A DNA stretch of 64,000 nt. Origin: Sphingomonas natans. GTDB taxonomy: Bacteria; Pseudomonadota; Alphaproteobacteria; Sphingomonadales; Sphingomonadaceae. Below are positions 23,043 through 62,565 of this stretch, in pieces. The first letter of the stretch is position 1. The number at the start of each line of letters is the position of its first letter. The DNA lies in contig NZ_JAUOTP010000007.1 of NCBI RefSeq assembly GCF_030546695.1, forward strand, positions 62,001 through 126,000, given 5' to 3'. The notes under the pieces are model-generated. The model ran no database searches and was not told the DNA's origin. It saw only the letters and a list, made by a program, of their open reading frames with translations. Both the position numbers and the translations under genes were made by a program.

Positions 23043-23125
23043 CTCTGCGCCTCCGGGGCTGCGCGTAAGAATGCGGAATCAGGAAGAAAAAGGGGTGGTT
23101 CACGCGGAGACGCGGAGACGCGAAG
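23043..23125. repeat. diverging pair of ACGCRGAG triple-octamer repeats
   Basis: Right unit (23102-23125): ACGCGGAG, ACGCGGAG, ACGCGAAG after TTC. Left unit (23043-23066) is a decayed reverse copy: CTCTGCGC, CTCCGGGG, CTGCGCGT then AA. They point outward around a 32-base spacer. The same triple octamers bound the GxxExxY gene at 30783 and 31195, but there they face inward. Confidence 0.75.
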
Positions 23126-30010: not shown

Positions 30011-30751
30011 TCACGGCATCGCCATCCCGCCATTAACGTGGATCGTCTGGCCCGTGACATAGCCCGCCTCGCGGCTGGAAAGATAGGCGACCGCCGCAGC
30101 GACGTCCGTGCCCTCGCCGAGCGCGCCCGCGGGGATTCGCCCGAGGATCGCGCCTTTCTGCGTCTCGTTGAGCGTGTCGGTCATCGCGCTCGCGATGAAG
30201 CCGGGCGCGACGCAATTGACGGTGATGCCGCGCGTCGCCAGCTCCTGCCCGAGCGCTTTCGACATGGCGGTGAGCCCGCCCTTGGACGCGGCATAATTGG
30301 CCTGCCCCGGATTGCCGGTCGTGCCGACGACCGAGGTGATCGTCACGATCCGGCCGAAGCGCGCCTTCATCATCGGCCGGGCGGCGGCGCGGATCAGGCG
30401 GAAGGCGGCTTCGAGATTGACCGAGATCACCTGATCCCATTCGTCGTCCTTCATCCGCATGACGAGATTGTCGCGCGTGATGCCGGCATTGTTGACGAGG
30501 ATGTCGAGCCTGCCGCCCAGTGCTTCGAGCGCGGCCGGAATCAGCGCCTCGACGGAGGCCGTGTCGGCGAGATTGGCGGGGACGGGCAGCGCGCCGCCGC
30601 CAATCTCCTGCGCGAGCGCGGTCAGCGCCTCGGCGCGCGTCCCGGACAGCGCCACCTTGGCGCCCTGCGCGGCGAGCGCCTTGGCGATCGCCGAACCGAT
30701 CCCCCCCGAAGCGCCCGTCACCAGCGCGGTCATACCTGTCAGATCGAACAT
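30011..30751 (-). CDS. fabG: 3-oxoacyl-[ACP] reductase
   Basis: NADPH-dependent reductase of fatty acid elongation; 246 residues. Cofactor loop TGASGGIG at 12-19, NNAG at 87-90, catalytic Ser 140, Tyr 153 and Lys 157 (QANYAASKGG). The start MFDLTGMTALVTG at 30751 is chosen over 30784: a GAGGGA lies just upstream, and longer starts run into the neighbour's frame. Its start codon is two bases below the stop of the inserted GxxExxY gene. Confidence 0.96.
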   Translation of the reverse strand: MFDLTGMTALVTGASGGIGSAIAKALAAQGAKVALSGTRAEALTALAQEIGGGALPVPANLADTASVEALIPAALEALGGRLDILVNNAGITRDNLVMRMKDDEWDQVISVNLEAAFRLIRAAARPMMKARFGRIVTITSVVGTTGNPGQANYAASKGGLTAMSKALGQELATRGITVNCVAPGFIASAMTDTLNETQKGAILGRIPAGALGEGTDVAAAVAYLSSREAGYVTGQTIHVNGGMAMP

Positions 30752-30752
30752 C

Positions 30753-31190
30753 TCAGTCCCTCGGTTCAGAAGAAGGTGATTCACGCAGAGACGCAGAGAC
30801 GCGGAGGGGGCGATGATCGTTCACGACCCGTCGGATCCCTTCCCGCAGCGTCGCGCCGGCAAAATTTATAAGCAGCCCCACGGGCTGCTTCGTCAATCGC
30901 AGATAGGTCAGCAGTTGCTTGGAGTGGACGGGCATCAACCTTTCGATCGACTTTATCTCGACGATCAGACGTTCGTCGACAAGCAGGTCGATCCGGAACG
31001 CGGCTTCGAACCGGATGCCATCATGCACGATATCGACTGGGCTCTGGCGCCTGACATCATAGCCCATACGCTGGAGTTTAGCCGCGAGAAGCACCTCGTA
31101 AACGCTTTCCAGCAAGCCCGGGCCAAGGTCTCGATGAATGCCTAAAGCCGCGTCGACGACATCCCCGCTGACCTCGTCAATCTCGCGCAT
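30753..31190 (-). CDS. GxxExxY protein (PD-(D/E)XK nuclease-like, PDDEXK_3)
   Basis: A 145-residue protein with the name motif G25-LL-E28-SV-Y31 in GPGLLESVYEVLL and a PD-(D/E)XK-like core: Asp 68 (FRIDLLVDERL) and Glu 78-x-Lys 80 (IVEIKS). This suggests a nuclease fold; activity is unknown. It sits inside the fab operon, splitting fabD from fabG, and is bounded by inverted ACGCRGAG triple octamers. Its last residues (LRVSASLRESPSSEPRD) are translated from the repeat, so the frame ends by chance near fabG. Probably an inserted cassette. Confidence 0.85.
   Translation of the reverse strand: MREIDEVSGDVVDAALGIHRDLGPGLLESVYEVLLAAKLQRMGYDVRRQSPVDIVHDGIRFEAAFRIDLLVDERLIVEIKSIERLMPVHSKQLLTYLRLTKQPVGLLINFAGATLREGIRRVVNDHRPLRVSASLRESPSSEPRD
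30780..30806. repeat. inward triple-octamer repeat, fabG side of the GxxExxY gene
   Basis: TTC then ACGCAGAG, ACGCAGAG, ACGCGGAG. With the unit at 31195-31221 it forms an inverted pair of about 27 bases flanking the GxxExxY gene. The outside flanks also match (AGAAGAAGG versus AGAAGAGGG in inverted sense), so the real repeat is longer than the octamers. Confidence 0.85.
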
Positions 31191-31194
31191 CGGT

Positions 31195-31221
31195 CTCTGC
31201 GTCTCCGCGTCTCTGCGTGAA
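31195..31221. repeat. inward triple-octamer repeat, fabD side of the GxxExxY gene
   Basis: On the plus strand CTCTGCGT, CTCCGCGT, CTCTGCGT, GAA; read on the minus strand TTC then ACGCAGAG, ACGCGGAG, ACGCAGAG. It starts ten bases after the fabD stop and ends four bases before the GxxExxY start codon. Confidence 0.85.
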
Positions 31222-31230
31222 CCCTCTTCT

Positions 31231-32166
31231 CTACAGCCGTCCCGCCAGAGCCTCGATGTCTGCCATCGTCATCACGCTCGTCACCGTCGCATCGGGGGCG
31301 ATGCGTTTGATCATCGGGGCGAGGACTTTGGCGCCGAATTCGACGAAATCGGTCACGCCTGCGGTCCACATCGCCTCGACGCTTTCGCGCCAGCGCACCG
31401 TGCCGGTGACCTGCTCGACGAGCAGGCTGCGGATCGCGTCGGGATCGGCGGCGGGTGCTGCGGTGACGTTGGCATAAACGGGGACGAGCGGCGGCCGGAT
31501 CGCGGCGGCGCCAAGCGCTGTGGCCATCGCGTCGGCGGCGGGTTGCATCAGGGCGCAGTGGAAGGGCGCGGAGACGGGGAGGAGCAGAGCGCGCTTCACG
31601 CCCTTTTCCTTGGACAGTGCCATCGCCCGCTCGACGGCGTCCTTGTGGCCGGAGATCACGACCTGCCCGCCGCCATTGTCGTTCGCCGCCTGGCAGACCT
31701 CGCCTTGCGCGGCCTCGGCGCAGATCGCCTCGGCGAGCGCCATGTCCGCGCCGAGCAGGGCCGCCATCGCGCCCTCGCCGACGGGCACCGCCGCCTGCAT
31801 CGCCTGCCCGCGCAGCTTCAGCAGTCGCGCCGTCGTTGCCAGATCGAACGCGCCCGCCGCGCAGAGCGCGCTATATTCGCCCAGGCTGTGGCCGGCGACA
31901 AAATCGGCCTTGTCGGAGAGCGCGATCCCGCCCTCTACCTCCAGCACGCGCAAAGTCGCGATTGCATTGGCCATGATCGCGGGCTGGGCATTTTCGGTCA
32001 GCGTCAGATCGGCGGCGGGCCCTTCGGCCATCAGCCGCGCGAGATGCTGGCCGAGCGCCTCGTCCACTTCCTGCAGGACGGCGCGGGCGGCGGGCGAGGC
32101 GGCGGCGAGATCGGCGCCCATGCCGACGGCCTGGCTGCCTTGGCCGGGAAAAACGAATGCACGCAT
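31231..32166 (-). CDS. fabD: malonyl-CoA:ACP transacylase
   Basis: Loads malonyl groups onto ACP. 311 residues, with the acyl-enzyme Ser 94 in GHSLGEYSA, His 203 in VSAPFHCALM, and the PGQGSQ opening at 7-12. It heads the fab cluster; the normal next gene, fabG, is displaced by the GxxExxY cassette. Confidence 0.97.
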   Translation of the reverse strand: MRAFVFPGQGSQAVGMGADLAAASPAARAVLQEVDEALGQHLARLMAEGPAADLTLTENAQPAIMANAIATLRVLEVEGGIALSDKADFVAGHSLGEYSALCAAGAFDLATTARLLKLRGQAMQAAVPVGEGAMAALLGADMALAEAICAEAAQGEVCQAANDNGGGQVVISGHKDAVERAMALSKEKGVKRALLLPVSAPFHCALMQPAADAMATALGAAAIRPPLVPVYANVTAAPAADPDAIRSLLVEQVTGTVRWRESVEAMWTAGVTDFVEFGAKVLAPMIKRIAPDATVTSVMTMADIEALAGRL

Positions 32167-61614: not shown

Positions 61615-62565
61615 ATGTCCCTGACCGTCGCCGTCCAGATGGACCCGCTGGAATCGATCAATATTGCGGGTGATTCGACCTTTGCGATCATGCTTGGCGC
61701 GCAGGCGCGCGGGCATAAGCTGTGGCATTATGCGGCGGGCGAGCTCTCCTATCGCGAGGGGCGGCTGACCGCGCCGGCCAAGGCGATCACGGTCCAGCGC
61801 GTCGCGGGCGATCATTTCGCGGTGATCGAGGAGAAAATGCTCGATCTCGGCGAGGACGTCGACGTGGTCCTGATGCGGCAGGATCCGCCCTTCGATCTGG
61901 CCTACATTACCGCGACGCACCTGCTGGAGCGGATCCAGCACCAGACGCTCGTGGTCAACGATCCCGCCGCGGTGCGCAACGCGCCCGAGAAACTGTTCGT
62001 GCTGGATTATGCCCAGTTCATGCCGCCGACGCTGATCACGCGCGGGCTGGAGGAGGCGCGCGCCTTCCATGCCGAGCATAAGGAAGTCGTGATCAAGCCG
62101 CTCTACGGCAATGCCGGATCAGCCGTGTTCTTCGTCAGCAAGGGCGACGCCAATCTCGCCGCGCTGACCGAATTGTTCGGGCAGGTGTGGCGCGAGCCGT
62201 TCATGGTCCAGGCCTTCCTTCCCGACGTCTCGAAGGGCGACAAGAGGATCATCCTGATCGACGGCAAGCCGGCTGGCGCTGTCAATCGCCTGCCCAAGCC
62301 GGGCGAGATCCGCTCGAACCTCGCGGTCGGCGGCACGGGCGCGCAAAGCGAGCTGACGGAGCGCGAGCTGGAGATCTGCGAGGCGCTCGGGCCGGAACTG
62401 GCGAAGCGCGGGCTGCTGTTCGTCGGCATCGACGTGATCGCGGGCCATCTCACCGAGATCAACGTGACCTCGCCGACCGGGATCGTCGCAATCGACCGCT
62501 TCAACGGCACGGATACGCCAGCGCTGATCTGGGATGCGATCGAGGCGCGATTGGCGCGCCGCTGA
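61615..62565 (+). CDS. gshB: glutathione synthetase
   Basis: ATP-grasp ligase joining gamma-glutamylcysteine and glycine. 316 residues; VVLMRQDPPFDLAYITATH, EVVIKPLYGNAGSAVF and GIDVIAGHLTEINVTSPTG are the family blocks. Cytoplasmic. Fourth gene of the rsmI cluster, with a repeat between it and yraN. Confidence 0.96.
   Translation: MSLTVAVQMDPLESINIAGDSTFAIMLGAQARGHKLWHYAAGELSYREGRLTAPAKAITVQRVAGDHFAVIEEKMLDLGEDVDVVLMRQDPPFDLAYITATHLLERIQHQTLVVNDPAAVRNAPEKLFVLDYAQFMPPTLITRGLEEARAFHAEHKEVVIKPLYGNAGSAVFFVSKGDANLAALTELFGQVWREPFMVQAFLPDVSKGDKRIILIDGKPAGAVNRLPKPGEIRSNLAVGGTGAQSELTERELEICEALGPELAKRGLLFVGIDVIAGHLTEINVTSPTGIVAIDRFNGTDTPALIWDAIEARLARR

Follow-up and report, generated by a model that had tools for sequence, protein, structure and literature searches.

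A GxxExxY gene bounded by inverted repeat arrays between fabD and fabG of Sphingomonas natans, and a candidate REPIN-RAYT-like repeat system associated with its family

The closest described arrangement is the REPIN-RAYT system (REPtron; TnpA_REP with REP/BIME), in which, according to two papers (PMC3116915, PMC8266576), a repeat-flanked gene coexists with dispersed, gene-less inverted pairs, the abundance of the repeats tracks the gene, and the repeats vary with the protein; all of these features are shared by the genes considered here. In the same papers the RAYT gene itself is mostly single copy and flanked by repeats, and no evidence is given for a mobility of its own (PMC3116915, PMC8266576). 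MITEs also share some traits with the present elements, being short, non-autonomous and bounded by terminal inverted repeats, possibly with an enzyme-bearing partner of full length. Free-standing PD-(D/E)XK homing endonuclease genes are small, lie at a conserved site and are patchily distributed; the gene described below has the same core, size, kind of site and patchiness, and its content differs between sister species as well. As for GxxExxY itself, a search of open-access PMC by title and abstract start retrieved no paper on this family together with repeats; PMC8934634 names a GxxExxY gene next to a reverse transcriptase, and PMC12085832 and PMC9756366 name the family.

The window, i.e., the whole stretch of 64,000 nucleotides analysed in this work, belongs to contig NZ_JAUOTP010000007.1 of S. 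natans (positions 62,001 to 126,000). It contains the following features:

30753-31190, minus strand: GxxExxY / PDDEXK_3 gene (145 aa), assigned by profile matches and catalytic residues
31195-31221, minus strand: upstream arm, TTC plus three ACGCRGAG octamers, pointing into the gene
30780-30806, plus strand: downstream arm, TTC plus three ACGCRGAG octamers, inverted, in the 3' end of the ORF
31222-31230, minus strand: outer flank AGAAGAGGG, purine-rich, adjoining the fabD stop codon
30768-30776, plus strand: outer flank AGAAGAAGG, purine-rich
31231-32166, minus strand: fabD, upstream neighbour of the cassette
30011-30751, minus strand: fabG, downstream neighbour of the cassette
23099-23125, plus strand: lone gene-less array of the same family, with one mismatch and without a counterpart at the syntenic place of the relative G001

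The first-pass annotation had placed a GxxExxY gene between fabD and fabG, and the profile search agrees with it, since the ORF scores 124.7 bits against TIGR04256 (GxxExxY; cut-off 35) and 123.2 bits against PF13366 (PDDEXK_3; cut-off 22). The inward-facing arms, each with TTC and a triple ACGCRGAG, and the matching outer flanks that it described are likewise present, at the positions listed above. Moreover, the repeat does supply codons close to the end of the protein, much as had been claimed: the downstream arm lies within the ORF and encodes the near-terminal residues LRVSASLRE, and the TIGR04256 match ends at residue 123, ahead of this arm-encoded tail. Single ACGCRGAG octamers are no more frequent in the window than expected (10 vs. 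10.2); the whole 27-mer arm has three window matches at no more than two mismatches, vs. none in 100 shuffles of the window. The third of these matches, the array at 23099-23125, is missing from the first-pass annotation; further short inverted repeats lie beside it, and the intergenic stretch that holds it exceeds its G001 counterpart by about 420 bp.

GxxExxY loci were collected from a search of relatives, from 397 Pseudomonadota genomes (part of the matches) and from GTDB contigs (the best 80 of 580 confirmed places); six of the 136 gene hits (five loci and one of the two hits of locus L045) were left out for short flanks, which gave 130 hits in 129 loci. An inverted flank score of at least 14 was obtained for 112 of these 130 genes, vs. 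4 of 388 windows of equal size taken from other parts of these loci (the GTDB part being the best 80 of 580 places); flanks with swapped partners reached it in 60 of 389 cases, and 18 of the 130 genes scored less than 14. The gene and its inverted repeats thus form a real unit, which recurs in many phyla. When the flanks were scanned singly, a strict inward array was detected upstream of 83, downstream of 92 and on both sides of 67 of the 130 genes, with outward arrays at 14 and 13 of the 130 flanks, respectively, and in 25 of 777 control windows; 22 of the 130 genes have no strict array at either flank.

Ten of the 112 loci lacked a clean unit chain and were set aside, so that 102 were used for the analysis of arm flavours. 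The core of the arm is approximately CRCNRAG, repeated mostly at 8-10 bp spacing with the units pointing inward, although the initial CRC and the spacing are partly imposed by the unit scan, which demands a starting CRC and 8-11 bp between units. Three units are the mode (155 of 204 arms), and the lead is frequently TTC, CTC or ACC. The flavours include CGCRGAG, CGCRAAG, CACRAAG, CRCAGAT, CACGGAA, CACGAAT and CGCAACG, and the clean-arm loci span eleven phyla by record label (many being MAGs, with a doubtful Arthrobacter record omitted and the GTDB part being the best 80 of 580 places).

Array DNA is also translated as the start or tail of GxxExxY ORFs in loci L043, L051, L053 and L066-L068, as well as at 30753-30830 of the window. 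Annotators should accordingly treat peptides such as PQRTQGTQR, HEGHEG and LRVSASLRE as element sequence and not as protein domains, and comparable spurious array-derived peptides are likely in other annotations. In locus L061 (genome G174) the GxxExxY frame runs on into a protein that we take to be similar to precorrin-8X methylmutase, giving 377 aa, an apparent fusion or frame run-on.

The analysis of the amino acid sequences revealed that the catalytic set E28, D68, E78, K80, Q92 and Y96 is complete in 124 of 131 full-length proteins. The order of the motifs (E, D, ExK, QxxxY) is that of RecB/Cas4-type nucleases. On the basis of its conserved D...ExK core, the window protein can be assigned to the PD-(D/E)XK superfamily, with a predicted activity. 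The similarity with Cas4 across the motif stretch is weak (best E 0.0018 with PADLOC and 0.03 with Pfam), and one of six proteins scores better against PADLOC PDC-M36A (E 0.00021) than against Cas4; a sequence search of the PDB for a relative of GxxExxY gave none (best E 0.19).

The two arms have the same flavour in 63 of the 67 loci in which both were independently detected (shuffled mean 18, maximum 30). The tree of 102 proteins implies 31 changes of flavour, vs. a mean of 58 and a minimum of 48 in 300 shuffles, and a deep clade of ten tree rows has unit endings GAT, GAA, AAT or GAC only; genome G083 harbors three GxxExxY genes with three different flavours. Arms and gene, then, travel together, a linkage for which recognition specificity is one explanation and common descent another. 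Among the arrays listed, the dispersed ones are mostly unlike the resident flavour in G203 and partly like it in G250 and G285. We also considered the agreement in flavour between nearest proteins of different phyla and discarded it: it was above every shuffle (29 of 56) because locus L093 was counted in, and without this locus it fell to 19 of 55 (shuffled 14.8, p 0.21). The record in question (QDFQ01000005.1) is labelled Arthrobacter sp. TPD3018; its fabD/fabG and GxxExxY sequences are sphingomonad-like, which suggests that it is probably mislabelled.

A profile search of the S. natans genome (G000; 4.56 Mb in 13 contigs) retrieved one GxxExxY match, whereas arrays are present at 17 places, cassette included, a place being counted if at least one arm lay within one mismatch. 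The other 16 comprise 11 gene-less inward pairs, four divergent pairs, whose TTC ends are separated by 8-11 bp, and one single array (that at 23099 of the window). The sequences were compared for all places but the C2 pair; the arms have 2-5 units and the interiors are, by eye, unlike one another. Dispersal mainly concerns the arrays in the form of gene-less pairs, which had escaped the first-pass annotation. No transposase was found between the arms of the cassettes and mini-elements examined. A known RNA family at the elements was ruled out by a gathering-score search of 12 loci against Rfam, in which only a tRNA matched. An interior hairpin as the conserved part was rejected after six mini-elements had been folded, with z values of -0.05 to -2.0 and no consistent excess over shuffles.

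The gene itself, in turn, is largely resident. In 23 loci fabG lies on the same strand, 50-82 bp past the profile match, and in 22 of them fabD is upstream, within 102 bp in 20 cases, at 246 bp in G033, because a gene-less pair intervenes, and at 856 in L101. The annotation of S. parapaucimobilis gives the same order, fabD-GxxExxY-fabG; its record proved useless for the annotated context of the arrays (15 two-unit matches vs. 11 with the reversed pattern). Some sphingomonad cassettes occupy other sites, e.g., proS|rnr in G240. An empty site in relatives, anticipated by the first-pass annotation, was found in G003, where the fabD|fabG junction measures 9 bp; the junctions of G002 and G004 are longer, of unrelated sequence and devoid of a cassette. 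Residence in the 23 sphingomonad loci goes some way towards a gene carried by all relatives in the same place, but in the relatives search GxxExxY exceeds the cut-off in only 4 of 59 genomes (own included), 55 being without it; a sphingomonad array within one mismatch occurs in 4 of the 59, together with the gene in three.

Furthermore, the content of the site is not constant. When S. phyllosphaerae (L099) is compared with S. endophytica (L103), identity reaches 90.5% for fabD and 92.8% for fabG, with 93.3% over the 150 bp that end fabD and 91.3% over the 150 bp that begin fabG, vs. 64.2% for the gene that the arms enclose. The corresponding values of the control pair, L104/L105, are 92.8% (fabD), 86.8% (gene) and 92.8% (fabG), and in four further pairs the genes are 67.6-73.9% identical vs. 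83.7-93.9% for the flanks. At one and the same site, therefore, the cassettes have strikingly different contents, and the arms mark where the difference begins. An AU test on the GxxExxY data rejected the five-species FabD+FabG clade (p 0.014) but not a GxxExxY clade made up of L099+L103 (p 0.285), so that the 64% identity may also stem from a gene that evolves very fast. The distances of GxxExxY and FabD correlate with a Mantel r of 0.54 (maximum of 2000 permutations, 0.58). Given these Mantel and AU values, congruence with FabD is partial, and strict vertical descent at fabD|fabG was rejected. Phage or plasmid cargo was also ruled out: GxxExxY is found in 0 of 50,697 phage records and in 8 of 72,556 from plasmids, where the top match is an 880-kb replicon bearing fabD and fabG.

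The small mobile cassette proposed at the outset thus stands in part: the layout is recurrent and patchy and the content of the site differs, but the gene is mostly resident and it is the gene-less pairs that disperse.

The turnover of these pairs was followed in the congeneric genomes G437 and G240, in which 21 gene-less pairs were read; 18 of them measure 112-154 bp. The arms mostly resemble those of the cassette in the same genome. The CGCNGAG type accounts for 40 of the 57 arrays in the loci fetched from G437, and the CACNAAG type is the commonest in the 1.2 Mb fetched from G240 (17 of 35, counted with a less strict pattern, which catches hits ending in GCG as well). All 31 array loci of G437 were compared by rule, and 12 had both flanks collinear in the sequence fetched from G240 or L091. 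At these 12 sites G240 has no array in seven cases, an array in four and a full cassette in one. The last is proS|rnr, where the cassette of G240 corresponds to a 141-bp mini-element with different arms in G437, whose interior shares 75% identity over 85 bp with that of a G240 element located elsewhere and bounded by other arms. In L192, L193, L197, L199, L200, L202 and L210 (G437 and G240), array pairs of different flavours are interleaved, or one pair encloses the other. No target-site duplication is visible, the intergenic sequence of the compared species being too diverged to define the insertion ends.

These comparisons bear on the likeliest of the alternatives. In it, the arrays would stay in place as sites of binding or processing, with a role in chromosome upkeep, mRNA structure or regulation; a domesticated nuclease would serve them, recombination alone would spread them, slowly, and mobility would be incidental. 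The seven of 12 sites lacking an array in one congener, the nesting and interleaving of flavours and the different cassette content of sister species all argue against it, even though four of the 12 sites are arrayed in both genomes and G000 and G001 have an array pair at one common site, albeit with unequal unit numbers. The gene, for its part, behaves as this alternative has it, being single copy in S. natans, rare in the plasmid and absent from the phage records searched, and faithful to fabD|fabG in its sphingomonad clade. All in all, we regard stationary sites as an unlikely explanation.

The distribution of arrays across genomes speaks to the role of the gene. At least five three-unit arrays, the arms of the cassette itself being counted, occur in 32 of 43 Pseudomonadota genomes with a GxxExxY match above the cut-off vs. 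22 of 354 without one (Fisher p 1.5e-23 over 397 genomes, which are not phylogenetically independent, families f1 and f46 supplying most positives); in the reversed-pattern control the figures are 1 of 43 and 5 of 354. The association of ACGCRGAG-like arrays with GxxExxY genes, suggested from the window, accordingly holds, and this result, together with the flank controls, rules out octamers that flank unrelated genes at random. Fewer than five arrays were counted in 11 of the 43 gene-bearing genomes. The search pattern detects only flavours with a RAG ending. The gene-less genomes with at least five arrays include relatives of the f1 and f46 positives, and some of the hits are probably coding repeats, judging from one-strand counts. 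In the other groups, where the counts cover gene-bearing genomes only, 35 of 40 genomes behind GxxExxY loci (40 of the 80 loci) have at least 10 arrays, vs. 2 in the reversed control. Two array-rich genomes, G195 (140 arrays) and G246 (37), have no detected GxxExxY gene, which may reflect a lost gene, an incomplete assembly or another mover.

Such genomes would suit a second alternative, according to which GxxExxY is a passenger captured between arms that are moved by a RAYT/IS200-type or a DDE transposase; the excess of mini-elements over the cassette in S. natans points the same way. Against this, one and the same gene family occupies such arms across many phyla and has retained its catalytic residues, and the presence of the gene predicts that of the arrays. 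Furthermore, a search for the Y1 transposase (PF01797) found it in eight of 16 array-bearing genomes and not in the other eight, S. natans among them, so that RAYT as the mover of the arrays was rejected. The passenger reading as a whole appears very unlikely. Highly improbable, finally, is a homing-like nuclease that cuts cassette-free operon junctions into which repair copies the cassette, with the gene-less arrays as deletion remnants: a fixed site with differing content, the cassette of G240 facing a mini-element in G437 at proS|rnr and the empty junction of G003 would agree with it, but the cassette-free fabD|fabG junctions are unlike in sequence and gene-less pairs lie at many sites, some with interiors alike within a genome and between congeners, a pattern not expected of deletion remnants of one homing site.

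The reading that we prefer, and that we hold to be moderately probable, is that of a REPIN-RAYT-like two-part repeat system, selfish or domesticated, run by a Cas4-like PD-(D/E)XK protein. Its resident part would be the PD-(D/E)XK gene nested between two inward arrays of about three 8-10-bp units each, and its dispersed part would consist of the same arms without the gene, i.e., miniature intergenic elements in which an arm and its inverted partner enclose mostly about 20-110 bp. The octamers may be the recognition sites of the GxxExxY protein, which would recognise its own arm flavour either as repeated units or as a hairpin of single-stranded DNA; the simplest substrate would be the hairpin that the inverted pair could form when single-stranded. 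The protein might then nick or process the arm DNA, and repair or replication would re-insert arm-bounded copies at intergenic sites. We know of no transposition chemistry for the PD-(D/E)XK-type family to which GxxExxY belongs.

In its broader form, this system would represent a new class of mobile DNA found in about eleven phyla, in which miniature elements with inward triplets are spread by a stand-alone, flavour-specific, Cas4-like nuclease and cassettes are exchanged at fixed operon junctions; we consider the case for and against such a class to be evenly balanced. If true, it would also account for the CACAGAGACACAGAG / CGCAAAGGCGCAAAG / CAGATGAACACAGAT type repeats of many bacterial genomes and would represent a second, independent way for tiny repeats to colonise bacterial intergenic space. 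Moreover, GxxExxY, a large orphan family, gains a hypothesis on its function and a concrete substrate, both of which can be tested in vitro.

In principle, the system can be compared with four known kinds. MITEs differ in that the arms here are made of tandem units; moreover, no target duplication was seen, at a divergence too high to define the insertion ends, and the cassettes and mini-elements examined have no transposase between their arms. Homing endonuclease genes are unlike the present gene, which is bounded by arrays and accompanied by many gene-less pairs elsewhere in the genome. Cas4 and RecB-type nucleases share the motif order and, for Cas4, a weak similarity, but GxxExxY proteins have about 120 residues and fall below the curated Pfam cut-off for Cas4. 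The REPIN-RAYT system is the nearest: a REPtron is recognised by dispersed inverted doublets whose occurrence follows that of the gene, and the GxxExxY arrays show such doublets too. However, its enzyme is of the HuH/Y1 type and the one considered here PD-(D/E)XK (PDDEXK_3); its repeats are palindromes, usually after GTAG, whereas these are tandem 8-10-mers with, by eye, no GTAG lead; and GxxExxY can be multicopy, with up to five matches in one genome, compared to the mostly single-copy RAYT of the papers cited above. Because membership of the REPIN-RAYT group fails on both enzyme and repeat type, we rate the GxxExxY-array system as lying outside the known kinds compared, with a layout that is still that of a resident enzyme and its miniature elements.
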